Positions 4,898 through 36,806 of a stretch of 36,806 nt of DNA are shown here, in pieces. The position numbers and the translations under genes were made by a program. Position 1 is the first letter of the stretch. The number at the start of each line of letters is the position of its first letter. The notes below the pieces were generated by a model. That model ran no database searches and was not told where the DNA came from. It saw only the letters and a list, made by a program, of their open reading frames with translations. Source of the stretch: Gammaproteobacteria bacterium (GTDB lineage Bacteria > Pseudomonadota > Gammaproteobacteria > Pseudomonadales > Azotimanducaceae). The DNA lies in contig JAPPHD010000006.1 of the NCBI GenBank assembly GCA_028821125.1, positions 1 through 36,806 on the forward strand, in the 5' to 3' direction.

Positions 4898-4909
4898 GGT
4901 AGGTGTCCC
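4898..4909 (-). repeat. Single copy of the GGGACACCTACC motif upstream of the integrase
   Basis: One exact copy of the 12-nt motif, reading GGTAGGTGTCCC on the plus strand, 74 nt upstream of the integrase start. All other copies lie beyond 26.5 kb. It shows the element is not confined to the right-hand island. Confidence 0.8.
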
Positions 4910-9571: not shown

Positions 9572-11899
9572 TCATGTCGGCGGCGCGGCCATGCGATAGC
9601 CGACGCCGCGCTCGTTGAAGATCCAGGTGGGGTCGCCGGCCCGGTCGCCGAGCTTGTCGCGCAGTTGCTTGACGAAGATTCGCACGAGGTTGGTGTCGGC
9701 GCTGGCTCGGCCGGACCAGATACGGTCCAGCAGTGTGTCGAAGGTGACCACGCGCCCGGCATTGACGGACAGCAGGCGCAGCAGTTCGTATTCGGTTACG
9801 GTCAGGTTGACGGCGCGGCCGGCGACGGTCACTTCGCGGCGGTCGTAGCGCACGGCGAGGTCGCCGAGCACGAACGGGTCCGGCTGCTCATGGCGGCGCA
9901 GCGCCGCGCTCACGCGGGCCACGAGTTCGGTGGGCGAGAACGGCTTGACGATGTAGTCGGAGGCGCCCGCCTCGAAGGCGCGCGCGACGGTCTCGTCGCG
10001 CCCGTACCCGGAAATGAACACCACGGGAATCTCGGCCAGTTCCGGCACCTGCTCGAGCAGTTGGATGCCGTCGCTGCCGGGCAGCAGCAGGTCGAGCAGC
10101 ACCAGCCGCGGCCGCTCGGCGCGGATGAGGCGTGAAAGATCCTGGGGCGCGCCGGTGACGATGGGGGCGTAGCCGGCCCTGGACAGGGCGTCGCGCACGA
10201 AGCGCAGTGTGCGCGGGTCGTCGTCGACCACCAGGACGCGCGGGGGTTCGCCCGCCGCGCGGGCCGGCCGCTCGTTGGCGGGTGCGGCGGCCGGGGCGCC
10301 GGAGGCTGCGGGGATGGTGAAGGTGATGGTGGCGCCGTGGCCGGGGCCGTCGCTCTCGGCGCGGATTCGCCCGCCGTGCGCCTCGACGAGCCCCTTGCAG
10401 ATCGCGAGTCCGAGCCCGTGACCGGCGGTGTGGCTGGTGCCGCCGAGGTGCTTGCGGAAGAGGTGCGGCAGCAGCTCCGGCGCCAGGCCCGGCCCGTCGT
10501 CTGCGACCGAGATCGCGACATGCGTGCCTTCCCGCGCCGCGGCAACGCGGACTGTGGACGCCGGCGGCGCGTGGCGCGCGGCGTTGGCGAGCAGGTTGTT
10601 CAGCACCTGCGCGATGCGCCGCCGGTCGGCCATCACGTCGGGCAGGCCGGACGGCAGGTTCGCGACCACGGCCTGGCGGCCGCCGGCGCCGGTGAAGGTG
10701 TCGCGGGCGCGCTCGACCAGGCCCGCCACGGGCGTCGGCTCGGGAGCCACCGACAGCGTGCCCGCCTCGATACGGCCGGCGTCCAGCAGGTCGCCGATCA
10801 GGCCGCGCATCTGGTTCGCCTGCTGGTCGATGATGCGGGAAAACTCGTGCACCTCCGCGGGCTCGAGGTTGGCGCCTTCGCCCAGCAGCGTGGCGGCGGA
10901 ACCCTTGATGGCGGTGAGCGGTACGCGCAGCTCGTGGCTCACCAGGCTCAGGAACTCGGTGCGCATGCGTTCCATTTCGTCGAGCGGCGCGAGGTCCTGC
11001 AGGGTGACCACCACCGACCGCCTGGCAACCCCTTCCGCGGGGATGGGGGTGGCGTTGACCAGCGTGCGCACGCTGCGCCCGTCCGGTACCGACAGCACCA
11101 TCTCTTCGGCGCGCACGGTCTCGGGGTCGGGGTTTGCGAACTGGTCGGCCAGTGGAAAGTCGGCGAGGGAGGTCTCGCGGCCGTCCGCGCGGCGGCAGGT
11201 GACGACTTCGAGGAGCTGTTCCGTCGGATGCCCGGGCATGCGCAGGCTCTCGACGATGCGCCTCGCCTCCCGGTTGAACGACACCGGCCGGCCGCGGCCG
11301 TCGAACACCACCACACCCACCGGCGATGTCTCGACGAGCGCCTCGAGGTCGGCCCGCGCAAGCCGCTCGGAGCGGTACATGCGCGCGTTGGCGATCGCGG
11401 CGGCAGCCTGGGCGGCGAACAGCAGCAGCGCCTTTTCGTCGTCGTCGCTGAACTCGATGCCGCCGGTCTTGTCGGCAAGGAAGAAGTTTCCGACGTTAAC
11501 GCCGCGATAGTGCATCGGCGTGCCCTGGAACGACCAGGAAAACGTTGGGGTGGGTGCGAGCCCCAGCGTACCGGCATAGTCCGCGAGGTCCGGTACCCGC
11601 AGCGTCCCGGGCAGTTCACGCAGGTGCTCGAAGAGGCGGCCCCGGTCGGGCCACGTAGCGAGTTCGACCTCTTCTTCGGGCGTGAATCCGCGGGCGATGA
11701 ACTCCTCCGTACCGCCGTCGTCAGCGACGGTGGCGATCATTCCGGTGCGGGCGCCGGTGAGGGCACAGGCGCCGTCGACCGCCTCCCGCAGCACCGTGTC
11801 GAGGTCGAGGCTCGTGCTCATGCGCAGTATCGCATCGGTCAGCGCGGCGATCCGGTTGCCGGAGTGCTTGTCGGCTGAGGTTGTATCGGATCGAGCCAT
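9572..11899 (-). CDS. GAF-PAS-histidine kinase-receiver-winged helix fusion (two-component system in one protein)
   Basis: The ATG at 11899, preceded by GGGAGG, is chosen over an in-frame GTG at 11938; product 775 aa. Domains in order: GAF (about 17-174), PAS (185-305), HisKA with phosphoacceptor H322 (LVSHELRVPL), HATPase_c (about 420-530; N-box NNLLANAARHA, G-box DDGPGLAPELL, second G-box GHGLGLAICKGL), receiver (about 553-668; acidic DDD, phosphoacceptor D603 in LLDLLLPG, K652 in DYIVKPFSP), and an OmpR/PhoB winged helix (about 675-772; ending WIFNERGVGYRM). All catalytic residues are present. There is no membrane segment, so it senses a cytosolic signal and would itself bind DNA after phosphotransfer. 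Fusing kinase and DNA-binding regulator in one chain is uncommon. A close paralogue lies at 18596-21049. Confidence 0.93.
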   Translation of the reverse strand: MARSDTTSADKHSGNRIAALTDAILRMSTSLDLDTVLREAVDGACALTGARTGMIATVADDGGTEEFIARGFTPEEEVELATWPDRGRLFEHLRELPGTLRVPDLADYAGTLGLAPTPTFSWSFQGTPMHYRGVNVGNFFLADKTGGIEFSDDDEKALLLFAAQAAAAIANARMYRSERLARADLEALVETSPVGVVVFDGRGRPVSFNREARRIVESLRMPGHPTEQLLEVVTCRRADGRETSLADFPLADQFANPDPETVRAEEMVLSVPDGRSVRTLVNATPIPAEGVARRSVVVTLQDLAPLDEMERMRTEFLSLVSHELRVPLTAIKGSAATLLGEGANLEPAEVHEFSRIIDQQANQMRGLIGDLLDAGRIEAGTLSVAPEPTPVAGLVERARDTFTGAGGRQAVVANLPSGLPDVMADRRRIAQVLNNLLANAARHAPPASTVRVAAAREGTHVAISVADDGPGLAPELLPHLFRKHLGGTSHTAGHGLGLAICKGLVEAHGGRIRAESDGPGHGATITFTIPAASGAPAAAPANERPARAAGEPPRVLVVDDDPRTLRFVRDALSRAGYAPIVTGAPQDLSRLIRAERPRLVLLDLLLPGSDGIQLLEQVPELAEIPVVFISGYGRDETVARAFEAGASDYIVKPFSPTELVARVSAALRRHEQPDPFVLGDLAVRYDRREVTVAGRAVNLTVTEYELLRLLSVNAGRVVTFDTLLDRIWSGRASADTNLVRIFVKQLRDKLGDRAGDPTWIFNERGVGYRMAAPPT

Positions 11900-26470: not shown

Positions 26471-26800
26471 CTGCCGGCCATGGGCGTTGACGGAGAACCT
26501 GCGACGGAGGCCATCCGGGTTCTGGTTCGTCGGGGCGGTCCCCAGTCGGGCCGTTTGGCGGGCCGTTTGGGGACACCTACCTTTTCCGTTTGGGGACACC
26601 TACCTTTTCGTTTGGGGACACCTACCTTTTCGCGTTTTCACCGAATCGATAGCCGCGTATTGCAGTGTGAGGCTCGTAGAAGCGTACAGTTCCTGGTCGG
26701 AAAACCCTTGCGGAAACGAGAAGGTGTACAGACGTTTCAGAGCACCTGCAATTCATTGAGGCGATCTCTGGACGAGGTTGGAGGCGTCTTGCGATTGCCG
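26471..26800. other. Intergenic region between the TagO-like gene and vapC
   Basis: Its first half holds the three-copy repeat array described separately. The second half (26641-26800) contains no gene I can support. Confidence 0.5.
26564..26640 (+). repeat. Array of GGGACACCTACC motif, 3 copies (plus orientation)
   Basis: Three nearly perfect head-to-tail units of 22-23 nt, each CGTTTGGGGACACCTACC followed by TTTTC. The motif cores begin at about 26570, 26593 and 26615. The array lies between the stop codon of the TagO-like gene and the stop codon of vapC. Confidence 0.9.
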
Positions 26801-27256
26801 TTATGGAGACCGCGACGATGGTGTCGCCAGTGGATCGCGGGTGGGGAGTTCCGGAAACAGCGAGAAGTCGCGGTCGCGTGTGAGCAGAACGTCGACGCCG
26901 TGCGCGATGCAAATTGCCGCAATACGCGCGTCGTGTACAACTCCTCCGACCACGTGCGGCCGATGTACGAATCGCTGCAGGGTCTGGTCGAAATCCTGTG
27001 TTTCTCCGATCATCCGGTTGGTGGGCGATGCGTACCAGGCATGAAACTGCAGCCAGGCCTGTTCCGGCGTTGTGGGCTGGTCTTTCCAGATGCGACGATT
27101 GGTCACCACGCTCAGGAACTCGTAGCAGCACGGCCAGGGAATCGACCAGGCTCGTTCGCCCTCGGCAAGATCTGTCAAGAGGGCATGTGCCGCCTCGCCG
27201 AATTGAGATTCGCGGCGGTGGGCGTAGACAAGGATATTGGTGTCGACCGCGATCAC
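26801..27256 (-). CDS. vapC: VapC-type PIN-domain ribonuclease toxin
   Basis: A 151-aa PIN-domain endoribonuclease that would cleave RNA (tRNA or rRNA in studied members) until bound by VapB. The acidic metal-binding residues are present: D5 (MIAVDTNILVYA), E46 (CCYEFLSVV), D109 (VVHDARIAA) and D128/D130 (LLTRDRDF). The start ATG overlaps the 3' end of the antitoxin gene by 4 nt (ATGA). Length is slightly above the usual 130-140 aa because of a Pro/Ser-rich tail. The toxin looks intact. Confidence 0.93.
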   Translation of the reverse strand: MIAVDTNILVYAHRRESQFGEAAHALLTDLAEGERAWSIPWPCCYEFLSVVTNRRIWKDQPTTPEQAWLQFHAWYASPTNRMIGETQDFDQTLQRFVHRPHVVGGVVHDARIAAICIAHGVDVLLTRDRDFSLFPELPTRDPLATPSSRSP

Positions 27257-27501
27257 CGGGTTCCGGGGTCGCCGTAAATCATCTCCCGAAGTTCCGGCCA
27301 GGAGTAGCTTTCCAACGGGTCAGCCGCGGCCGGATCGCCGACTCTCAGGTCGGGCAGCCGGTAGGAAGGGGGGTGATCGGTACTGTGCAACACGGCGCGC
27401 AGCCCTTCTTCGACAACGGCGCGCAATGGCCGTGCGGTAAGTTTCGCATGACGCTTGGCTTGCAGAAGCAATTCGTCGTGGATGTCGAGAGTGGTTTTCA
27501 T
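27253..27501 (-). CDS. vapB: VapB-type antitoxin (DUF2191 family)
   Basis: 82-aa antitoxin partner of the downstream PIN toxin. The N-terminus (MKTTLDIHDELLLQAKRHAK) is the ribbon-helix-helix-like region of DUF2191 VapB proteins; the C-terminal part (ESYSWPELREMIYGDPG) should wrap the toxin. Repeated CCATAT half-sites immediately before the ATG point to autorepression. No Shine-Dalgarno lies in the short upstream gap, and a TAATAT -10 ends 6 nt before the ATG, so the mRNA may be leaderless. Confidence 0.9.
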   Translation of the reverse strand: MKTTLDIHDELLLQAKRHAKLTARPLRAVVEEGLRAVLHSTDHPPSYRLPDLRVGDPAAADPLESYSWPELREMIYGDPGTR

Positions 27502-27505
27502 GGAG

Positions 27506-27543
27506 CCATATTACCCATATCTTTGAATATGGTACAGCCATAT
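27506..27543 (-). promoter_or_regulatory. vapBC operator with inverted CCATAT half-sites
   Basis: CCATATT (27506-27512) and AATATGG (27526-27532) are a perfect 7-bp inverted repeat with a 13-nt spacer. Further CCATAT copies lie at 27515-27520 and 27538-27543. The site starts 5 nt before the vapB ATG and overlaps a TAATAT -10. Binding by the VapB/VapC complex is inferred from how this family is regulated. Confidence 0.65.
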
Positions 27544-27569
27544 CTGTGCTATTGATGGAATTTGGAATA

Positions 27570-27660
27570 GGGACATCTACCTTTGGAATAGGCACACCTA
27601 CCTTTTGACGAAAAAGTGACGAAAAAGGGACACCTACCATCAAAATAGGGACACCTACCT
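27570..27660 (+). repeat. Array of GGGACACCTACC motif, 4 copies (plus orientation)
   Basis: Cores at 27570 (one mismatch), 27591 (one mismatch), 27627 and 27648, with AT-rich spacers of irregular length. It lies between the vapB promoter and the end of the Asp/Asn hydroxylase gene. Minus-strand frames through it give repeated VGVP peptides, a translation artefact. Confidence 0.9.
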
Positions 27661-27725
27661 TCCGCGCGACCTTGCGCGCGTTTCCCGCAACTGCGCTTGA
27701 GGTGTTGCTACGAACCGGTTCGCCG

Positions 27726-28301
27726 TCAAGCGGCTGTCTGGCCCAACCGAGCCAGTTCCTGGGGAGGCACGTAATCGAAGATGAAGGTGATTCGGTCCTC
27801 AGAGCCCTTGTTGGCAACGCTGTGCGTCAACTGGTTGTTGATTTCGTAGGCCTGACCGACTTGCAGTTTGTAAGGGCGCCCGTCGATGGTGAAACGCACC
27901 CGGCGGTTCGTGGTGATGGGCACGTGAATCCGATGACCGATGCGGAATGACGGGTGGCGATCGGTGTGCGGGGTGATCTTTCCGCCCGCCTTCAGCCTGG
28001 CGGCCATCGCCCGGATGATCGTGCCTCCGCCCGGGTAGTGCTGCCCAACGATCTCGTGGATGGCGGGCATGGCCACCTCGGCGAGGCGATCCCAGGCGGC
28101 CTCTTTCCTGACCATGAGCTCCGGCCAGGACGACTCCTCGGTGAACACCAGCACCATGGACTCCGTGTCCTTGTGTACCTCGTACGCGCGCTGGCGGTGT
28201 TCCTGTTCGTGCCAGGCGGCTTCTTCCTGGGCAAGGATGGCGGCGGCGAGCGGGCCGGAATCCACCGGCCCGAGTTCGCGGATGCGTGTGTCGATGTCCA
28301 A
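27726..28301 (-). CDS. Aspartyl/asparaginyl beta-hydroxylase family dioxygenase
   Basis: A 191-aa Fe(II)/2-oxoglutarate-dependent oxygenase of the Asp/Asn hydroxylase (PF05118) type. The double-stranded beta-helix core spans about residues 85-180. Metal ligands H112 and D114 (ITPHTDRHPS) and H160 (NNQLTHSVAN) are visible; R170 (EDRITFIFDYV) is in the expected place for 2-oxoglutarate binding. Family members hydroxylate Asp/Asn side chains of proteins or peptide natural products. It starts 32 nt after the stop of the TonB receptor on the same strand, so the two are probably one operon. A role in handling the receptor's ligand, or modifying a peptide, is an inference. Confidence 0.88.
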   Translation of the reverse strand: MDIDTRIRELGPVDSGPLAAAILAQEEAAWHEQEHRQRAYEVHKDTESMVLVFTEESSWPELMVRKEAAWDRLAEVAMPAIHEIVGQHYPGGGTIIRAMAARLKAGGKITPHTDRHPSFRIGHRIHVPITTNRRVRFTIDGRPYKLQVGQAYEINNQLTHSVANKGSEDRITFIFDYVPPQELARLGQTAA

Positions 28302-28333
28302 CGGCTACGGCCGGTAGGCCTGTTGCGTGGCGG

Positions 28334-30799
28334 TCAGTTGATGCCGCGCATGTACCGGAAGTTGACGCCGAAGGTGCGCGGCTGGTTCACGCTCAGACGC
28401 TGCTGGGCGAAGCGGTTGTTGAAGAATAGCTGCGCCTTCTCGTCGGTGATGTTGTCGACGAACAGCGACACCGCCCAGTTCTGGCTTTCCAGGCCGAACT
28501 GCAGGTCGAGGGTCTGCCAGCCATCCTGGTTCACCACCGGTGAGAGGAACGGGCTCGACTCGATGCCGGCCAGCGAGTTCACCGACTCGCCCGTGTGGGT
28601 GAAGCGGGCCATGATGTAGGGCTCGGCGTTCATCCACATGGTGGGGAAGGAGTAGGTGACGTTCACGTGGGCCTTGAGGTCGGGCACGATCGGTAACTGG
28701 GTGCCGGTGGGCACGACGATGGGGGCCTCGGAATCTGCAAACAGGGTGTCGGCCTTGGAGAGTTCGCCGTCGTTGTAGCCGAGCGTCGCCTCGATGTTCC
28801 ACTGGGCGTCCGGCAGCCAGGAGAACCAGACCTCCACGCCGTTGATCTCGGCTTGGGGGAAGTTGACGATGCCGAGGGTGAAAAGTGTGGGCTGCGGGTC
28901 TTCCGCCTGCACCTGGATGTCGTTCCAGGTCATCCAGTAGGCCGAGATGTTCAAGCGCAGGCTGTTGTCGAGCCACTCCGTCTTGGCGCCGATTTCCCAG
29001 TTCTCCACCGTGTCGGAACTGTAGGCGTTCAGGGTGCCGGCAGGTGCGGGGAACAAGTCGTTGGGCGGGCCGAACACGCTCTGCGGCCTGGCGGAGTTGG
29101 CGCCGCCGCGGCGGAAGCCTTCGGAATAGGTGGCGTAGAGGAGTGCGTCGTTCCAGCGGTAGCTGACGTTTACCTTGGGCACGAAGCCGTCTTCGTCGGA
29201 GATGCCGAGGTGGCCGGGGGAGTAGCAGTAGTCCACGGCGCAATCGGGTTCGCCTCCGTTCAGGCCGACCATGGTGCCGTTCTTGACGATGTAATCGTTG
29301 TCAATCTGGTAGTAGCGGCCGCCGGCGGTGATGGCGAAGTTCTCGGTGAGGTTGACGGTGGCTTCGCCGAATATCGCCCACTGTTCGAGTTCGCTGTCGT
29401 AGGTGCCGGAGTACCAGTTGTTCGACTCGTATTTCGGGTCGATGCCGTTGAAGTAGTAGCCGGCATAGTTGATGTAGGCGAACGCCGCGCTGCCGGTGAA
29501 GTTGTAGACGTTCGAGATAAACAGTTCGTCCACCTCCCGCCTGTTGTAGAAACCGCCGACGATGGCCGACCAGCGGCCTTCCGCGGGGGTGGCGTAGCGG
29601 CCCTCGATGGTCCAGTTGTTGGCCTTGCGGATGTCGTAGTCGTTGGCGATGGGGTCCCCGCCGAAGTCGTAGATGCCGCCGGTGTCGTAGTAGGGGTCGC
29701 CGGTGTTGAAGGAGCGGAAGTAGTCGCCCCGCTGCTGGTATACCTGCAGGTAGGAGGTGGCGTCGGCGTAGTAGGCGCTCTCGCGGTCGAAGTAGGCGGC
29801 GGTGAGCACGACGCTGCCGTAGGGCAGGTCGCCCTCGATGGTCATGGCGAGCTGATACCACTCGTCGTCCCAGTCGTCGTCGGTGAAGCGGGCCTGTTCG
29901 CGGGGGCCGAAGGTTGGGAACACGGTGGTGTCTTCGTAGATCTGCTTGTTCAAGCTGGCGTCGGCGAATCCGTTGAGCTCGTATTTCTGGTAGATGCCGA
30001 CCAGGTCGACGGTCCAGGCCTCGTTGGCGTCGATGCGCAGTGCTGCGCGGCCGCCGGTCCAGACCGAGGAGTTGACGTCGTCCTGGACGCGGTGCGCGTT
30101 GGTGAAGGTGCCGCCCGGCGAGGGCGAGAGGATGTTGTCGACCCAGCCGGCCTCGTCGGCGCGGAAACCCACCAGGCGCAGGGCGACCTTGTCGGGTACC
30201 AGGGGCATGTTCAGCATGGCGCTGACGTCGTAGCTGGCGCCGCCGTCCTTGACGGCCCAGCCGGCCAGGTTCACCCAGCCGCTGGTGTTGTTGGGGTCGG
30301 GCTTGTTGGTGATTATGCGCAGGGTGCCGCATTGGGCGGCGTCGCCGAAGAGGGTGCCCTGGGGGCCGGCCAGGGCTTCGACACGGGCGATGTCCACGAG
30401 ACGGGGGTCGGGGTTGTAGCCTGCAGCGGTGATGGGCTGCTCGTCGAGATAGACGGAGGTGGTGGCGGAGTCGCTGAAGCTCAGCCCTTGGGCGGCGCAG
30501 CCGCGCATGACCACGGAGTTGGCGCCGGGCTGACGTTCGCTGAGCGCGAGGCTGGGGATCTGGCCGACGTAGTCGTTGAAGGTCTTGAAGCGCTGCAGGG
30601 AGATTTCTTCGTCGGAGAGGGCGGTGACGGCAATGGGGGCGTCCTGTTGGCTCACCGCCCGCTTGGTGGCGGTGACGATGATCTCTTCCAGCGCCGTTTC
30701 CTGGGCCTGGGCCGCGCCGGTGCCGGCCACCGCGGCGCCGATGGCGATGCTCAGGGGGCGCTTGTGGCCCGGGACTTTGTCGCTGCCGTTGCTTGACAT
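28334..30799 (-). CDS. TonB-dependent outer-membrane receptor
   Basis: 821 aa from the ATG at 30799, preceded by GGAGAG; an in-frame extension to 30883 has no site. Signal peptide about 15-32 (SIAIGAAVAGTGAAQAQ), TonB box EEIIVTATKR, plug domain about 44-160 and a beta-barrel ending FGVNFRYMRGIN. Plug motifs include SVYLDEQPI and RVEALAGPQGTLFG as in sphingomonad/caulobacter-type receptors of broad or unknown ligand. Two Cys in the plug (VMRGCAAQG, DAAQCGTLRII) sit where other members usually have small residues and could form a disulfide. It is the first gene of an operon with the hydroxylase. Substrate unknown. Confidence 0.93.
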   Translation of the reverse strand: MSSNGSDKVPGHKRPLSIAIGAAVAGTGAAQAQETALEEIIVTATKRAVSQQDAPIAVTALSDEEISLQRFKTFNDYVGQIPSLALSERQPGANSVVMRGCAAQGLSFSDSATTSVYLDEQPITAAGYNPDPRLVDIARVEALAGPQGTLFGDAAQCGTLRIITNKPDPNNTSGWVNLAGWAVKDGGASYDVSAMLNMPLVPDKVALRLVGFRADEAGWVDNILSPSPGGTFTNAHRVQDDVNSSVWTGGRAALRIDANEAWTVDLVGIYQKYELNGFADASLNKQIYEDTTVFPTFGPREQARFTDDDWDDEWYQLAMTIEGDLPYGSVVLTAAYFDRESAYYADATSYLQVYQQRGDYFRSFNTGDPYYDTGGIYDFGGDPIANDYDIRKANNWTIEGRYATPAEGRWSAIVGGFYNRREVDELFISNVYNFTGSAAFAYINYAGYYFNGIDPKYESNNWYSGTYDSELEQWAIFGEATVNLTENFAITAGGRYYQIDNDYIVKNGTMVGLNGGEPDCAVDYCYSPGHLGISDEDGFVPKVNVSYRWNDALLYATYSEGFRRGGANSARPQSVFGPPNDLFPAPAGTLNAYSSDTVENWEIGAKTEWLDNSLRLNISAYWMTWNDIQVQAEDPQPTLFTLGIVNFPQAEINGVEVWFSWLPDAQWNIEATLGYNDGELSKADTLFADSEAPIVVPTGTQLPIVPDLKAHVNVTYSFPTMWMNAEPYIMARFTHTGESVNSLAGIESSPFLSPVVNQDGWQTLDLQFGLESQNWAVSLFVDNITDEKAQLFFNNRFAQQRLSVNQPRTFGVNFRYMRGIN

Positions 30800-31169
30800 T
30801 TGGCTCTCCGGTCGATCGTCAAGGCGTCGCGGCAATTCTAGTGCAGGACCGTTGACGGGTTTTGTGTACCTATAGGCCCGCAAGCCGAGCCGGTGCGCGG
30901 CTTCCTTGCGGGTCGCGCGAAGGCGTCATTTTCCTGTAACTGACTGGATGTCGCAAATTTGGGGAGCGATGCATTGGTGGGCGGGATTCTTTGTCGGCTC
31001 GGTCGGAGGTTCTTTGGGTAGGTGTCCCTTTTCCGTTGTCGGCTCGGTCGGAGGTTCTTTGGGTAGGTGTCCCTTTTCCGTTGGGTAGGTGTCCCTTTTC
31101 CATCCCTTTTCCATCCTCGTTTCCAGAGTAAACTCGGCCATCGCTTTTTTGGCGCATTGCCGAGTCCAA
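30800..31169. other. Divergent intergenic region dominated by repeats
   Basis: Promoter region for the leftward receptor and the rightward propeller gene. Its middle (30991-31095) is the repeat array listed separately. Frames through it are low-complexity artefacts. I cannot place -10/-35 boxes with confidence. Confidence 0.45.
30991..31095 (-). repeat. Array of GGGACACCTACC motif, 3 copies (minus orientation), with perfect 45-bp duplication
   Basis: Bases 30991-31035 and 31036-31080 are identical 45-nt units, each ending in the motif (GGTAGGTGTCCC on the plus strand) and CTTTTCCG. A third, shorter unit follows at 31081-31101. Cores are at 31017, 31062 and 31084. Exact identity of the 45-nt units indicates recent duplication. 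Confidence 0.92.
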
Positions 31170-32105
31170 TTGACCACACTCATCGCCACCTCCATCGTTC
31201 GCGGCAGCCGGCAAGGCGAGAGCCATGGCGGCGCGTACCTGGTGGATCTGGAAGGGGAACGCGTGCGGCAGGTGATCGACTGGGACAATTCGGACATTGA
31301 CTGGCGGGGCCGGGGTCAGGACCGCGGCCTGCGCGGCATTGCGTTCGATGAAGACCGGGTGTTCATCGCGGCGAGCGATGAGTTGTTGGTTTACAACGTA
31401 CGATTCGAGCAGCTTGCGTCCTACCGCTGCGGATACCTCAGGCACTGTCACGAGATCAGCCGCTACCGGCGCCGGCTTTACCTCACCTCCACCGGTTTCG
31501 ATTCCATCCTGGGGTTCGACCTTGACAGCAATCGTTTCAGTTTCGGGCTGCATGTCACGCGCGACCGCAAAGGGCTTCGTGGTGCGCCCTTTCAGCCCGA
31601 CGGCCGGCGCGGGCCGCAGCCTGGCAATGAACTGCATCTGAACAGCGTTACCTGCGACCGCAGCGCCTTGTACCTGAGCGGGCTCAACACCGGCGGGTTG
31701 CACGCCTATACCGGGCGTTACATCAGACAGGTGGCGGCACTGCCGGGAGGTGCCCGCAATGCCCAGCCGTACCGGGATGGCGTGCTGTTTAACGATACGG
31801 AGAAAAACCTGGTGCGCTTTGTGCCCGTCCAGGGAGAGCAGAAGGCATTCAGAGTTCCTTTCTACAATCCGGCGCTACTCACGCATTCTGGCCTGGGCGA
31901 CTCCCGCATCGCGCGTCAGGCATTCGCGCGTGGGCTGTGCCTGGTCAACGACAGTGTGATCGCAGCCGGCTCCTCGCCCGCCACCATCACGCTGCATGAC
32001 CTCGATGCGATGCAGACCAGGGTCAGCGTCAACCTTTCCATGGACGTCCGGAACGCCGTTCACGGGCTGGAGGTGTGGCCGTTCGGTGCTGAGAAGGGGT
32101 GCTGA
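31170..32105 (+). CDS. Predicted beta-propeller protein (TIGR03032/DUF4915-like)
   Basis: About 311 aa from a TTG at 31170; a longer frame from 31089 begins with GTGTCCC inside the repeat array and is rejected. The ribosome site is poor, so the start is uncertain. The product has repeated beta-strand units (GGAYLVDLEGERVRQVIDW, FDEDRVFIAASDELLVYN, YLTSTGFDSILGFDL, LYLSGLNTGGLHAYTG), with conserved-looking DRGLRGIAF and HCHEIS motifs. This is the style of uncharacterised six-bladed propeller proteins; TIGR03032/DUF4915 is my best guess from memory. No signal peptide. Its last codons overlap the next repeat array (GCTGAGAAGGGG), so the C-terminus may have been reshaped by repeat insertion. Confidence 0.65.
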   Translation: MTTLIATSIVRGSRQGESHGGAYLVDLEGERVRQVIDWDNSDIDWRGRGQDRGLRGIAFDEDRVFIAASDELLVYNVRFEQLASYRCGYLRHCHEISRYRRRLYLTSTGFDSILGFDLDSNRFSFGLHVTRDRKGLRGAPFQPDGRRGPQPGNELHLNSVTCDRSALYLSGLNTGGLHAYTGRYIRQVAALPGGARNAQPYRDGVLFNDTEKNLVRFVPVQGEQKAFRVPFYNPALLTHSGLGDSRIARQAFARGLCLVNDSVIAAGSSPATITLHDLDAMQTRVSVNLSMDVRNAVHGLEVWPFGAEKGC

Positions 32106-32270
32106 GAAGGGACACCTAAATTCAGGCTGCTGAGAAGGGACACCTACATTCAGGCTGAGAAGGGACACCTACCTTCCGACTATCTCATTGACGTCCACCC
32201 TGTCCGAAGAGGCTGAGAAGGGACACCTACCTTCCGACCGTCTCGTTGACGTCCACCCTGTCCGAGGCGA
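32096..32270 (+). repeat. Array of GGGACACCTACC motif, 4 copies (plus orientation), with second-order duplication
   Basis: Cores at 32109, 32137 (both with altered last bases), 32162 and 32220. Each is preceded by CTGAGAA or GAGAA. The last two carry a 41-nt companion (CCGACTATCTCATTGACGTC type, from 32174 and 32232) repeated with two changes, followed by a diverged tail. The array covers the gap between the propeller gene and the hydrolase and overlaps the 3' end of the former. Confidence 0.88.
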
Positions 32271-32337
32271 CCATGCACGCGGCGCGTTGGAGCCCGTTGG
32301 CGAGATCGCTGACTGTATAGCGCAAGGGGAGCCGGAT

Positions 32338-33267
32338 TTGATTGCGGAAACGATTGACTTTCGCGGCGGCGATGGCAAAGCGATCCATGCCTGTCGCTGG
32401 ATGCCCAAGCAAGTCCCTAGGGCCGCTCTACAGATCGCCCACGGGATGGGCGAGCACATCGCCCGCTACGAACCGGTGGCGGCGCGGCTCAATGCGGCGG
32501 GATACGTCGTTTACGGTAACGACCACCGGGGTCACGGGCGCACCGATCCCGACCGCCTCGGGTCACTGGGGCATGACGGCTGGAACCGGGTAGTCGATGA
32601 CGCCCGTCTCCTCAACGAGCGCATGGCCGAGGACTTTCCTGGCCTTAAACGTATGCTGCTCGGCCACAGCATGGGCGCCATGCTGGCGCAACAATTTCTG
32701 TGCTATCACGGGTCGAGCCTCGATGCCGCGGTGCTCTCCGGTTCTCCGGGCTTCCGGGGTGGGCTGCAGACAGCAATCACCGGATTGGTGACGCGTTTCG
32801 AAGCCTGGCGGCTCGGAAACGACGCGGAGAGTGAGGTGTTGTCCGGCTTGTTGTTCGGCCACGCCAACCGGGACTTCGACGGCGACGACGCTACCGGGTT
32901 CGAGTGGCTGTCGCGGGATGCCGGTGAGGTATGCAAGTACGTCGACGACCCGCGTTGCGGAACGGTGCTGCGCACTGGCAGCCTGCTGGCCCTGTTCGCA
33001 GGGGCTAAGGGAGCAGCGTCTGCTGCCGCAATCGCCCGCATTCCAATCGATCTGCCTATTCTGGTGCTCTCCGGCACCGCCGATCCGGTGCATGACGAAT
33101 TGAAAAACCTCGACCGGCTGTTCAAACGCTACGCGGCAGCCGGGCTCAACGTGAGCCGCAAGCTCTATGCCGACGGGCGACACGAGATGTTCAACGAGAT
33201 CAATCGGGTGGAAGTGCTCGACGATCTTGTGGAATGGTTGGATGGCGTCTCGCTGAATCGGGCATAA
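32338..33267 (+). CDS. Alpha/beta hydrolase, monoacylglycerol lipase/lysophospholipase-like
   Basis: The TTG at 32338 with AGGGGAG 6 nt upstream gives 309 aa, beginning right where homology to the Hydrolase_4 (serine aminopeptidase S33-like) family starts. The earlier frame from 32188 runs through repeats. Catalytic triad: S111 (LLGHSMGAM), D249 (LSGTADPV) and H282 (DGRHEMFNE); oxyanion region HGMGEH and the DHRGHGRT motif are typical of monoacylglycerol lipases. It would hydrolyse an ester, probably of a lipid, in the cytosol. It converges with the sulfotransferase gene, the stop codons being 1 nt apart. Confidence 0.9.
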   Translation: MIAETIDFRGGDGKAIHACRWMPKQVPRAALQIAHGMGEHIARYEPVAARLNAAGYVVYGNDHRGHGRTDPDRLGSLGHDGWNRVVDDARLLNERMAEDFPGLKRMLLGHSMGAMLAQQFLCYHGSSLDAAVLSGSPGFRGGLQTAITGLVTRFEAWRLGNDAESEVLSGLLFGHANRDFDGDDATGFEWLSRDAGEVCKYVDDPRCGTVLRTGSLLALFAGAKGAASAAAIARIPIDLPILVLSGTADPVHDELKNLDRLFKRYAAAGLNVSRKLYADGRHEMFNEINRVEVLDDLVEWLDGVSLNRA

Positions 33268-33268
33268 A

Positions 33269-35320
33269 TCACAGGCCCTCATCAGGGGGTGGCTGTTCGC
33301 TCACTTGTTGGCGATTGATGTATTCGTACTGCGAGTAGCGCGGTAGCACGGGCTCCAGCACTTCGATCAATTCGTCGAGGTGGCGTTGGTAGTTGCGCCA
33401 GTAGTGGATCGACTGCGTATAGACTGGCAGGCGCACTTGTTCGGAGCTGGCGGTTCGGATCGGGCGGTCGGTTTCGTGGAAGCGTGCGCAGGCATCTTCC
33501 CAGGGCAGTTCGCAGTAGTCGAGCAGACGACGTAGCTGATTGTCGAAGTCGGTGACCATCTCTTCGTACTGCACGGTGAGTACGTGGCCCGGGAGCGCTT
33601 CGTGCCAGTGGTCCATAAAGCGCTGATATTCCAGGAAATATTCGCCGATATCGGTTAGGTCGTAGACGAAGGTCTGGCCCTTTGCGAACAACTGGCGATA
33701 GCAGCTCAGAGTGGAATCCAGGGGGTAGCGCCGGGCGTCGATGACCTTGGCATTGGGTAGAACCAGATGCAGGAAGCCGATGGTAGGGAAGTTGTTGGGC
33801 ATCTTGTCGACGAAACGGGGGCGGTCGGTGTGGCGGTGCAGTCTGGCGCGTTCCAGGTAGTCTGTGCCGAGGGCCTTGAGGTGGGACGGGCGCAGTTCGC
33901 GCACGGCATGGGGATAGTTGATGCCGTCGGCGCGGTTTCGGTTCAGCGAGGTTGCCACTCGGCCGAGGTAGGGCAGTTCCGAGGTGCCTTCCACCTGGCT
34001 GTGGCTGGCCAGGATCTGTTCGATGAGGGTCGAGCCGGACCGAGGCAGGCCCAGGACGAAAATGGGTGCCGGGTCGGGGTGGCCGAGGCCGGTGTGTTCT
34101 TGAAGGAAGGGCTGGTCGAATACGTCGATGATCTCGTCGTTCATCACCTCCGTCTGCACCGGGTCGTAGTGTTCGAGCATGCGCTGCCTGGCGTTTCCGC
34201 GTGAGTAGTAGCGCCAGGCGGCGTCGAAATCGCCGGCGTCCTCATGAGCTTTGGCCAGCGCAAACAGGAAGTTGACGGCGGATTGATCGGTAAGGTCGTC
34301 CTCGCTTCGCAGCGCGGAGTTTATGGCTTCGATGTCGTTGTCGGTGAGCCGGTAGGTTTTCAGGTTGGCCAGGCTCCAATAGCTTTCCCCGTTCTCGGGG
34401 CGCATGCGGATGCATTGGCGGTAGGCCTGGATGGCTTCTTCCTGGCGGCCGAGTGTCTTGAGCGTATGGCCGGTGCCGAGCAGCGCGCCAGCGTGTTTCG
34501 GTTGCAATTCGAGCGCGCGGCGGTAGGAGGCAAGAGCGTCTTCCGTACGCCCGACCGGCGCCAGAGTGGAGGCGAGCAGATAGTGTGGTTTTGCGGCGGT
34601 GGGTTGCAGGCGGCAGGCCCGCTGAAAGCAGTCCAGGGATTCACCGTAGCGGTGCTGCTCCTGGTAGATCTGGCCCAAGTCCAGGAAGGCGAGGGTGTAG
34701 TCTGGCGCCAGGGAGACGGCTCTCTCAAGGAGCGCCTCGGATTCCTCGGTTTCTGACTTGTTCGAGAGGATGCCGGCCAGCAGGCGCATGGCATCGACGT
34801 TTTCCGGGGATTCCCTCAGCAACTCGCGATACAGGCGCTCGGCTTCGTCGTGGCGGCCTTCCTTATGATGCTCCGCGGCGAGCGCCAGTTTCCTGCGCTG
34901 CGGGTTGAGCGCGAAGGAGGCTTCGAATGCGCCGTCGGCCGCTTCTCCCCTGCCGGCCATCGACAGCGCCCGGCCCAGGTAGAAAAACGCCATTTCCGCT
35001 TGCGGGTCCAGCCGGGTCGCGTTCTCCAGAATCTCGACTGCCTCATCGATTCGACCGGTCTCAATCAGGAGATAGCCGAGGTCCTCGTGAGGTTTGGCAA
35101 AGTTTGGCGCCAGTTCAATTGCGCGCCTCAAACGCTGTTCCGCCTCATCGAAATCCCGCGCCTTCAACAGAATTGCGCCGAGCAGCGCGGTCAAATTTAC
35201 ATCGTTTCGATGCTGCTTAAGCGTTTCCCGACAAATGGCCGCGGCAGCGTTCATGCGCCCCGCGTTGATCAGGCCCATCACCTTGTTGAAGGCGGCCCTG
35301 GGTGTCAATTGCTCGTCCAT
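33269..35320 (-). CDS. TPR-repeat sulfotransferase
   Basis: 683 aa from the ATG at 35320 (GAAGAG 4 nt upstream). A longer frame from 35368 starts with GTGTCCC of the repeat and is rejected. The N-terminal part (about 10-325) is a series of tetratricopeptide repeats (for example ELAPNFAKPHEDLGYLLIET, RALELQPKHAGALLGTGHTL), forming a protein-binding superhelix. The C-terminal Sulfotransfer domain has the PAPS 5'-phosphosulfate loop at about 419-432 (FVLGLPRSGSTLIEQIL) and a 3'-phosphate motif (VIDARRYPLDSTLSCYRQ). It would transfer sulfate from PAPS to a Tyr, peptide, lipid or glycan; the target is unknown. TPR-sulfotransferases are frequent near TonB receptors in this kind of bacterium (from memory). 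Confidence 0.92.
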   Translation of the reverse strand: MDEQLTPRAAFNKVMGLINAGRMNAAAAICRETLKQHRNDVNLTALLGAILLKARDFDEAEQRLRRAIELAPNFAKPHEDLGYLLIETGRIDEAVEILENATRLDPQAEMAFFYLGRALSMAGRGEAADGAFEASFALNPQRRKLALAAEHHKEGRHDEAERLYRELLRESPENVDAMRLLAGILSNKSETEESEALLERAVSLAPDYTLAFLDLGQIYQEQHRYGESLDCFQRACRLQPTAAKPHYLLASTLAPVGRTEDALASYRRALELQPKHAGALLGTGHTLKTLGRQEEAIQAYRQCIRMRPENGESYWSLANLKTYRLTDNDIEAINSALRSEDDLTDQSAVNFLFALAKAHEDAGDFDAAWRYYSRGNARQRMLEHYDPVQTEVMNDEIIDVFDQPFLQEHTGLGHPDPAPIFVLGLPRSGSTLIEQILASHSQVEGTSELPYLGRVATSLNRNRADGINYPHAVRELRPSHLKALGTDYLERARLHRHTDRPRFVDKMPNNFPTIGFLHLVLPNAKVIDARRYPLDSTLSCYRQLFAKGQTFVYDLTDIGEYFLEYQRFMDHWHEALPGHVLTVQYEEMVTDFDNQLRRLLDYCELPWEDACARFHETDRPIRTASSEQVRLPVYTQSIHYWRNYQRHLDELIEVLEPVLPRYSQYEYINRQQVSEQPPPDEGL

Positions 35321-35650
35321 TAAACTCTTCGAATAGTGACTAGCCGAATAGGAGCCGAATAGGGACACCTACCCCCGACTAGGGACACCTACCGCCGATC
35401 CAAATAGGGACACCTACCCCTGATCGATTGGGGACACCTACCGGTCACCACTAGGGACACCTACTGGATACCCGTTCGACCTTTTATCACAGACCAGGGG
35501 TGGAACGCTTCGATGACTGAGCACGAGAGAGTGCTGAGGTGGGATTCCAAAACAGCGCGAGCAGGTTGCGTGCTGCAAGGTACCCTCGCAGCCTAACTGC
35601 TGCTGCGGCGTGCAGTTGCTAGATCAGCAGGTTCCAGGAGAGAAGTTGCG
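35321..35650. other. Intergenic region between the sulfotransferase and RAYT genes
   Basis: It contains the five-copy repeat array (35362-35465) and about 180 nt with no gene. In the latter, AACTGC and GCAGTT (35595-35617) can form a 6-bp hairpin, and overlapping GCAGC/GCTGC pairs give alternatives. This might be a 3' structure of the RAYT transcript or a structured end of the element. Confidence 0.4.
35362..35465 (+). repeat. Array of GGGACACCTACC motif, 5 copies (plus orientation)
   Basis: Cores at 35362, 35382, 35407, 35431 and 35454, mostly preceded by TAG or ATAG, with spacings of 20-25 nt and unrelated spacer sequences. It is the longest array in the window and lies between the start of the sulfotransferase gene and the 3' end of the RAYT-like gene. 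Confidence 0.92.
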
Positions 35651-36571
35651 TCAACTAGTGAATGCCAGCATGCCCCTGGGCAAGCTTGCGTGCGACTGCG
35701 TGCGCCGTCGCAGCTTGGAAAAGTAACTCAACCACGCATTGGGTTCGTTCGGTCCGGCCGGGGGTAGGCGCTGCTCAGCTTCCTTGGGGATGTGTGATTG
35801 ACCCGTGCGCGCGGCAACCCATTGAACATGTGCAAGGTACTCCTTCAACGACAGAGCCAGTACGGTTTGGCCACGCGACTTGATGTGCCCGTTGTCAAGG
35901 TCGAACGTGATTGGTGCCATCGCCTTGTTCAACAACTCTGGCTTGGCGCTGGCTTCCTCCTGGCGCCGCGCCAATGAGGTATGCGTCGCGGCATCGATTC
36001 GGTCGGTGTCTCCGGCACGCAGTGGATTGAGATCGACGTATGCCATGCAGGCATGCACAGCGGTTTCATCCGGCAAGGCTTTGGAATGAAATCGCCCCTC
36101 CCAGAATCGACCAGTGCATTCGTCCTCGATGTTTGAACGCCGAGCGATCGGTGCGTTCAGGCATCGCATGTACCAGGACAGATCAGACAGCCTTTCGCGC
36201 AAAACCGCGATCCGTTCGGTGTTTTCGGCCAATGTGTCGATTGACTCATCGAGGTCGTCACCGGGTTTGGGCGGGAAGACGGTCAACCAGCGTCGCGCGA
36301 CGTCTATGTCGGGCAGTTGTTTGCCGGCCCTGGGCCGATAGTGGATGACGATGTGGTAGTGATTCGACATTACCGCGTAGCCCAGCACGTCAACGGCGAA
36401 AACGTTTGTGAGTGCCAGTAGTCGGGCTTCGATCCAGCAGCGCCGATGGGAGAAGTCCTTGCCGGTGGTTGGATCCTTCCCAGTCAGCCGAGTGCGGCGT
36501 ACGCATCGGGAAACGATGTGATAGAAGCCGCCGATGTCTCGATCGATCAATTTGCTTCGCGGACGGGTCAT
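35651..36571 (-). CDS. RAYT-like (REP-associated, IS200/Y1 family) HUH transposase
   Basis: 306 aa from the ATG at 36571 (GGAAA upstream); the in-frame extension to 36754 lacks a site. It has the Y1 transposase core: opening FYHIVSRCVRRTRL, the HUH metal motif H71-x-H73 (AVMSNHYHIVIHY), the likely catalytic Tyr Y134 (LSWYMRCLN) and the GRFWEGRFHSK and YVDLNPLRAG motifs typical of REP-associated tyrosine transposases (COG1943). An insertion of about 45 residues between the HUH and Tyr motifs and a long C-terminal region make it larger than the classical IS200 enzyme (about 150 aa). It would nick and rejoin single-stranded DNA at short recognition sequences. It is flanked by two arrays of the 12-nt motif in opposite orientation. 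All key residues look intact. Confidence 0.9.
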   Translation of the reverse strand: MTRPRSKLIDRDIGGFYHIVSRCVRRTRLTGKDPTTGKDFSHRRCWIEARLLALTNVFAVDVLGYAVMSNHYHIVIHYRPRAGKQLPDIDVARRWLTVFPPKPGDDLDESIDTLAENTERIAVLRERLSDLSWYMRCLNAPIARRSNIEDECTGRFWEGRFHSKALPDETAVHACMAYVDLNPLRAGDTDRIDAATHTSLARRQEEASAKPELLNKAMAPITFDLDNGHIKSRGQTVLALSLKEYLAHVQWVAARTGQSHIPKEAEQRLPPAGPNEPNAWLSYFSKLRRRTQSHASLPRGMLAFTS

Positions 36572-36756
36572 GCTGGCGTTTCCGTGAGGATTGACTCTGG
36601 ATAATGCGAAACGGCGACGGGCATTGTCTATGGCGATATAGGTTGGAATCGCGTAGGAAATCGCCCCTGTGGTTTTTTGTAGCAGGGGTCCAAAGCCGCC
36701 GGCAGCAGGCGCCGGAAGTGACCCCAATCGGACAACGTGGGCGCCCCCGATCAAAA

Positions 36757-36796
36757 GTAGGTGTCCCCGATCACCGATCAGAAGGTAGGTGTCCCC
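36757..36796 (-). repeat. Array of GGGACACCTACC motif, 2 or more copies (minus orientation), at window edge
   Basis: Plus-strand GTAGGTGTCCCC at 36757 and 36785, each followed by GATCA-rich sequence (CGATCACCGATCAGAAG). The array probably continues beyond the right edge. It lies upstream of the RAYT-like gene, in inverse orientation to the array at 35362-35465. Confidence 0.88.
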
Positions 36797-36806
36797 GATC
36801 AGAAGG

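Follow-up and report, generated by a model that had tools for sequence, protein, structure and literature searches.

Known enzymes of the RAYT/IS200/IS605 type recognise folded DNA hairpins. The system described here lies on a stretch of gammaproteobacterial DNA of 36,806 nucleotides (contig JAPPHD010000006.1 of assembly GCA_028821125.1, hereafter the window) and combines a RAYT-like HUH transposase gene with tandem arrays of a short motif, GGGACACCTACC. Sequence comparison makes it probable that this motif is the end-recognition sequence, i.e. the terminal inverted repeat (TIR), of a mobile element that encodes a transposase of TnpAY1 subclass 2.3, that the recognised site is linear and has no hairpin, and that the arrays are extra element ends, often clustered near the gene.

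The nearest published concept that we found is TIRYT/TIRtron (De Nocera et al. 2013, PMC3733652). That paper describes RAYT-like HUH transposases between TIRs that are unrelated to GTAG; some of these TIRs share the word GGGGWSAS, and some TIR families form dimers or clusters. The survey of Quentin et al. 2018 (PMC6006769) places 20 of 26 TIRYT/TIRtron examples in subclass 2.1 and six in 2.2 and 2.5, and its automatic and manual searches gave no sequences resembling repetitive extragenic palindromes (REPs) for subclasses 2.1 and 2.3. Our system is similar to TIRtrons in that a RAYT-like gene lies between inward-directed TIRs (an inward copy is present at 84 of the 97 loci compared below), and in that GGGGACAC, which occurs in arrays 1, 5 and 6 of the window, fits GGGGWSAS; across the loci, position -1 of the motif is G in only 38%. 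It differs in that it belongs to subclass 2.3, that the motif was followed over 97 loci, that the edges were mapped in several families and that the arrays are long.

The transposase gene of the window (35651..36571, minus strand) is a complete frame of 306 codons, and an alignment of 54 sequences places the HUH motif at N70-H71-Y72-H73 (NHYH) and the candidate catalytic tyrosine, Y178, in YVDLNP. The two signatures, shared by most homologues with an intact frame (one clade has Y[D/Q/N/I]xLNP instead), agree with the sequence-only reading, which had recognised a complete RAYT-like HUH gene among the arrays. All 54 aligned sequences match the NCBIfam RAYT model at E 0.001 or better; the window protein itself scores 37 bits with REP_Tyr_transpos, under the cut-off of 80, and 16 bits with Pfam Y1_Tnp against a cut-off of 23. 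Y1_Tnp found no match in the window's own genome, where the gene is the sole match to its own sequence. The top Foldseek match of the AlphaFold model (mean pLDDT 87.7) in the PDB is 4er8, the REP-bound TnpAREP (E 7e-4, TM-score 0.56 by target length, root-mean-square deviation 9.4), which is also the only fold match under E 0.001; those that follow have E values of 0.1 or above and are for the most part IS200/IS605 transposases, and PDB searches with the sequence gave nothing useful. In the model, about 52 residues (79-130) are inserted between the HUH strand and helix 131-149, and residues 199-306 form a C-terminal region. For subclass 2.3, PMC6006769 gives a length near 325 residues, a 55-residue insertion between beta3 and alphaC, a C-terminal extension, NHYH, YVDLNP, a gammaproteobacterial distribution and multiple divergent copies per genome. 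By NHYH, YVDLNP, its length, the predicted insertion and the C-terminal region, the window protein appears to fit this subclass, and its homologues have the gammaproteobacterial distribution and the multiple divergent copies per genome in common with it. The difference lies in the repeat: the survey names no cognate repeat, and a candidate is proposed here.

A phage origin of the gene was rejected, as there was no PHROGs match and the sole match on a viral contig was partial and 21% identical; a link to defence was rejected as well, with no PADLOC match. One homologue (L194, NZ_AP026896.1) lies in a circular record of 4.94 Mb that is labelled as an Aeromonas caviae plasmid; its size points to a chromosome with a wrong label.

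With up to one mismatch, GGGACACCTACC matches 21 times in the window (16 exact matches and five with one mismatch), against an expectation of 0.12 and a maximum of one in 100 dinucleotide shuffles, which bears out the earlier statement that the motif is far above chance. Twenty of the matches form six arrays between 26570 and 36795, around the transposase gene. The sequence-only reading had counted 21 array copies; the six arrays are real, and 21 is reached only if GGGACACCTAAA at 32109, a copy with two mismatches, is included. The remaining match, at 4898, had been listed there too; it is isolated and compatible with chance, because 57 related genomes carry zero to two exact copies each. Array 5 (35362..35465, plus strand, five copies) lies downstream of the transposase gene and array 6 (36756..36795, minus strand, two copies) upstream of it. 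Both are directed into the gene, as right-end and left-end array respectively, i.e. the gene is flanked on both sides by inward-directed arrays. The others are array 1 (26570..26626, plus strand, three copies), array 2 (27570..27659, plus strand, four copies, two of them with one mismatch), array 3 (31017..31095, minus strand, three copies) and array 4 (plus strand, three copies with up to one mismatch at 32137-32231, or four over 32109..32231 if the degenerate copy is counted).

The association between motif and gene was followed in homologous loci. A contig scan of the best 80 of 162 relatives gave 79 loci, and the main set of 97 consists of these, 17 further loci from relatives and the window. 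The 17 come from 30 loci found by protein searches (L088-L117), among which L088 is the window, nine were left out as partial or weak matches and three as duplicates (L090 equals L021, L098 equals L057 and L103 equals L066). One genome often contributes several of the 97 loci, for which reason they were also collapsed to 32 protein clusters at 60% identity. GGGACACCTA was found in none of the 79 scanned loci; many of these carry an abundant version of their own, e.g. GGGACACCCAC, GGGACATCCAC, GGGACACACA, GGACAGGCAC or GGACATCCAT. The best-word search for each locus was noisy and often returned flank words, and this gave rise to a directed test for GGACA. Within 600 nt on both sides of the gene, GGACANN[C/T]A occurs 263 times directed inward vs. 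17 times outward. An inward copy is found at 84 of the 97 loci and an outward copy at 12; inward copies outnumber outward ones in 27 of the 32 protein clusters, and the reverse is found in none. The density of inward motifs is 3.36 per kb at 0-300 nt and 0.14-0.16 per kb beyond 4 kb. With the relaxed form GACANN[C/T]A, the inward motif is present at 93 of 97 loci and the outward one at 30 (13 and 6, respectively, of 13 plasmid loci).

The part of the motif common to the 84 loci is GGACANN[C/T]A, and this bears directly on the relation to REP/RAYT systems. The opposite strand of the window motif, GGTAGGTGTCCC, includes GTAG, and many relatives have GTGG at that place, as would be expected of a GT[A/G]G foot. 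However, GT[A/G]G on the opposite strand needs C at motif positions 6 and 9, and C is found there in 68% and 60%, respectively; some clades have GTGC or GTGT. The tetranucleotide of the window motif is thus not kept across lineages, and a conserved GTAG was rejected. The proposal by the sequence-only reading of a RAYT variant acting at a linear GTAG-type site holds in two respects, namely that the site is linear and that the motif belongs to the gene, and fails as to the GTAG type; the TIR reading was not part of it.

The interpretation as an element end is supported by elements present in several copies. Their sequences are alike within the element and differ beyond it, and for several families this boundary coincides with the motif. 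Three Exilibacterium copies share a left edge at GGGACAGGCAC; two of them also match up to GGTGCCTGTCC on the right, where the third (L052) has no motif. Two copies in Thiotrichaceae span AAAGGACATCC to GGCTGTCC, with both edges at the motif; no target-site duplication was seen by eye in these two. In the pair L063/L086 the left edge begins at GGACACCCATC, and five Pleionea copies begin on the left at CAGACACTCC, once CAGACATTCC (CAGACA[C/T]TCC). The 5' side of the motif is A/T-rich at positions -7 to -2. No hairpin signal was detected in the 50 nt inward from 121 ends, where the mean z was 0.12 vs. -0.40 for random 50-mers of the same loci (mononucleotide shuffles). The end regions are less structured than random 50-mers, therefore no hairpin explains recognition, and the earlier description of the motif as linear is supported.

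These results leave little room for a canonical REP/RAYT system, in which the RAYT would disperse the motif as a short REP that has a GTAG foot. The RAYT-like protein with its catalytic fold (4er8) and the inverted flanking repeats are indeed reminiscent of a TnpAREP REPtron. The present ends, on the other hand, have no hairpin, for which reason a canonical REP was rejected; they have no fixed GT[A/G]G, coincide with element edges and form tandem arrays, clustered around the gene in the best-resolved genomes, and PMC6006769 reports no REP for subclass 2.3. We consider this explanation most improbable. The comparison with IS200/IS605 leads in the same direction. Both are Y1 HUH transposases moving as elements, yet IS200/IS605 has palindromic ends, and guide sequences on the 5' side of the palindromes specify the cleavage sites. 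The present ends are linear inverted repeats, the Y1_Tnp score lies below the Pfam cut-off, and the 50 nt inward of the 121 ends show no subterminal hairpins. A palindromic repeat, TAGACTGTCTA, was observed in Aliikangiella marina (L024, gene at 10001-10987), where it recurs downstream of the gene with a frequency of about one per 53 nt and is unlike the linear motif found elsewhere. It might connect linear ends with REP-like palindromes.

The position of the copies also bears on the idea that the motif is an operator, i.e. a protein-binding site serving autoregulation of the transposase or the control of genes nearby, in the manner of iterons or transcription-factor arrays. Copies are iterated, at a spacing of 15-60 nt (60 nt being the chosen cut-off), and some lie upstream of genes. 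But they are also found downstream, inverted and at element edges, the spacing shows no clear helical phase, and the arrays adjoin unrelated genes, so we regard operator sites as very unlikely.

In the window's own genome (5.28 Mb in 193 contigs), GGGACACCTACC has 41 exact copies vs. two for the reversed control pattern. Sixteen lie on the window contig (15 in arrays), 16 on contig C105, seven on C84 and two on C48. The end of C105 falls inside an array with the repeated flank ttctgatcg, which is the flank at the end of the window contig too. Because both contig ends carry this flank, C105 probably continues the window beyond 36806, and array 6 probably runs on into it; if so, 31 of the 41 exact copies would be at most about 11 kb away from the transposase gene, counting both sides. 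The exact motif of the window is found at zero to two copies in each of the 57 related genomes, 29 of which hold a more or less distant homologue of the transposase. GGGACAYCCAYC, a sister version of this motif, is distributed differently: it has 17, 18 and 16 copies in G011, G012 and G014, 11 in the window genome and zero to six in all other relatives. G011, G012 and G014 hold the three closest transposases among the 57 relatives, and the other 26 relatives with a transposase match do not stand out for GGGACAYCCAYC. One array of the window genome (L143, C48:16216-16617) mixes GGGACACCTACC copies with GGGACACCCACC; a second element, since lost, may have left it behind. With its 11 copies of GGGACAYCCAYC, this genome is above nearly all relatives.

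The correspondence between motif and protein was also followed on a tree of 82 proteins (15 of the 97 loci, with a broken or short frame, were omitted), of which 71 entered the change counts, the other 11 having no motif label. The variable dinucleotide of the motif changes 27 times on this tree, whereas 500 shuffles gave 34.6 changes on average and never fewer than 29. GG vs. any other dinucleotide changes six times (shuffled mean 12.2, minimum 9).

The arrays turn over in copy number. In two complete chromosomes that are about 93% identical, G058 and G059, GGACAGGCACC has 47 and 57 copies (three and two for the reversed control). Four clusters hold 46 of the 47 copies in G058 and all 57 in G059, and the cluster with the only transposase match holds 23 and 35 of them, respectively. 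Copy number differs at 12 of the 14 array sites that could be paired by flanking alignment (e.g. 13 vs. 4 and 13 vs. 5 copies), and one further site has 11 copies in G059 and two degenerate copies in G058. Two other differences between the chromosomes are of a different kind: one is an ordinary DDE transposase insertion, and upstream of the transposase gene G058 has about 1.1 kb (1767284-1768409, vs. 437474-437480 in G059), partly 72% similar to a stretch elsewhere in G059, which is probably another mobile element.

Such turnover might also be expected of ordinary minisatellites, with replication slippage growing the arrays and the transposase having no role after the first insertion of its ends. 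The units within an array share local flanks, flank-only duplications resemble slippage products, and array copy number is variable. On the other hand, arrays with unrelated flanks in one genome have one exact motif in common, the motif type tracks the transposase, and slippage by itself has no means of placing an identical 12-mer at new intergenic sites. We think this explanation doubtful, though it deserves serious attention. Another set of short, non-palindromic intergenic repeats in sulfur-oxidising gammaproteobacteria, the TAACTGA repeats of Beggiatoaceae (PMC4679880), is similar in these respects; it differs in being 7 nt long, strictly tandem and of an unrelated motif, and the word "transposase" is absent from the main text.

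Besides the motif itself, the arrays contain a second kind of repetition. Each array has its own sequence of 8-14 nt directly 5' of the motif, and several arrays also contain repeats of it without the motif. These motif-free flank duplications end inside the leading GGG of the motif, as at 32086-32111 and at the single motif C84:29455. In the window, gtgctgagaaGGG stands twice ahead of the first motif of array 4 (32086..32111, plus strand), atggaaaaGGG twice ahead of array 3 (31093..31114, minus strand), agccgaataGG twice ahead of array 5 (35342..35363, plus strand) and tgacgaaaaaG twice within array 2 (27606..27627, plus strand). In L012, L014, L020, L056 and L074, flank words such as GGGCCTGATG, TTGCTATT and CATGTATTCC recur about ten times, with and without the motif, therefore the arrays have two nested repeat units. 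In the non-overlapping set of loci, a motif-free copy of the 5' flank lies near 214 of 419 array copies and one of the 3' flank near 113; the figures are 13 and 5 of 18 in the window alone, and 219 and 120 in the set of 453 copies that includes overlapping loci.

The genes between arrays raise the question of a gene-cassette system, in which the arrays would serve to move the genes between them as in integrons. At one site of G059, two arrays enclose 3.35 kb with enoyl-CoA hydratase genes, whereas G058 has just one array there; at another, G058 carries a RidA-like gene and G059 only arrays; and the hydrolase and sulfotransferase genes of the window are mostly located elsewhere in genomes of the same genus. 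However, array-to-array recombination accounts equally well for gene loss, and in G005 the sulfotransferase gene adjoins the gene starting near 31169. This latter gene is divergent, and it flanks array 3 together with a TonB receptor gene on the other side. The two genes are adjacent in five of eight same-genus genomes (G001, G002, G006, G007 and G008), apart in G005 and not seen as a pair in G003 and G004. Because the pair is shared with five relatives, array 3 stands between old neighbours, and GGACACC or its complement is absent from the intergenic stretch in those five. Since the five keep the pair without the array, array 3 was either gained in the lineage of the window or lost outside it, a gain being simpler; the intergenic regions are too diverged for an exact empty site of the array at 31017 to be located. 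Overall, a cassette system seems unlikely to us. Between arrays 1 and 2 (26801-27500) we also observed a VapC-like PIN toxin gene with a small gene upstream, a probable toxin-antitoxin pair.

Taken as a whole, the motif behaves as a terminal inverted repeat, as seen in the anatomy of the loci, the inward orientation, the edges in several families, the lineage variants and the turnover, and as a putative linear recognition site for a subclass 2.3 enzyme it is well supported by these comparisons. A number of observations weigh against this interpretation. Firstly, the strict inward motif is absent from 13 of the 97 loci, and the strict GGACA rule did badly on plasmid loci (inward at 4 of 13, outward at 3 of 13); in the five plasmid loci inspected the first G is replaced, the sequence being [A/T]GACACCCA or similar, and the relaxation of the first G was chosen only after these plasmid sequences had been viewed. 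Secondly, the edges are not clean in Saccharospirillum (seven copies) and Catenovulum (three copies), and the window's own edges cannot be mapped, since its transposase is single-copy and at best 54% identical to the aligned relatives. Thirdly, G062 has 49 copies of GGGACACCCAC, and among the 37 places listed 19 are on 14 contigs without the main transposase copy, and G061, with at least two transposase loci, has 28 motif copies over 12 contigs; clustering near the gene holds in the best-resolved genomes and is not universal. Fourthly, the correlation between the motif dinucleotide and the protein tree is moderate. Finally, a word taken as control 40 nt upstream is found again near 215 of the 419 copies, counted without excluding copies in register with the motif. 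The excess of 5' flanks is therefore statistically weak, and because of this control we treat flank duplication as the anatomy of particular arrays and not as a proven general excess; slippage may still be a source of array growth.

With these points in mind, we propose a mechanism for the reading as element ends. The site read by the enzyme would be linear and about 11 nt long (GGACA-NN-[C/T]A-[C/T]-N, where NN differs between lineages), and the element would begin and end at such a GGACA-type site. Its HUH/tyrosine centre might nick single-stranded DNA at the leading GG or next to it, with a 5'-phosphotyrosine as the product, and strand exchange or template slippage between nicked copies would give tandem duplications; in this way the enzyme may itself build the arrays. 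Where breakpoints fall in the leading GGG, the 5' host flank would be copied as well. Solo end arrays could arise at intergenic sites that are AT-rich and frequently close to the gene, and pairs of inward-facing arrays might offer alternative ends for the genes between them. Such a role of opposed arrays is compatible with the data, and so is plain recombination between repeats. We further speculate, tentatively, that this might be a hairpin-independent branch of Y1 HUH enzymes which reads a linear end and copies its ends, sometimes together with host flank, into many intergenic arrays around its own gene; the surrounding genes would then lie between interchangeable ends that one transposase could join, delete or move, and a two-base code might be read directly by the added domains specific to the subclass.

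Among the openly licensed PMC papers listed by our searches, none seems to report the present motif for subclass 2.3, as judged by title, beginning of abstract or passages. What is new here is the candidate cognate motif for this subclass, its lineage variants, its role at element edges and the large arrays. A multi-copy RAYT-like subclass for which the 2018 survey knew of no DNA partner now has a candidate recognition sequence, and one that varies between lineages. If the enzyme cuts the linear site, this would be a departure from the hairpin rule of IS200/IS605 and TnpAREP. The system is also a possible source for arrays of short repeats in environmental gammaproteobacteria, and it offers a way of asking if one transposase reshapes its own gene neighbourhood.

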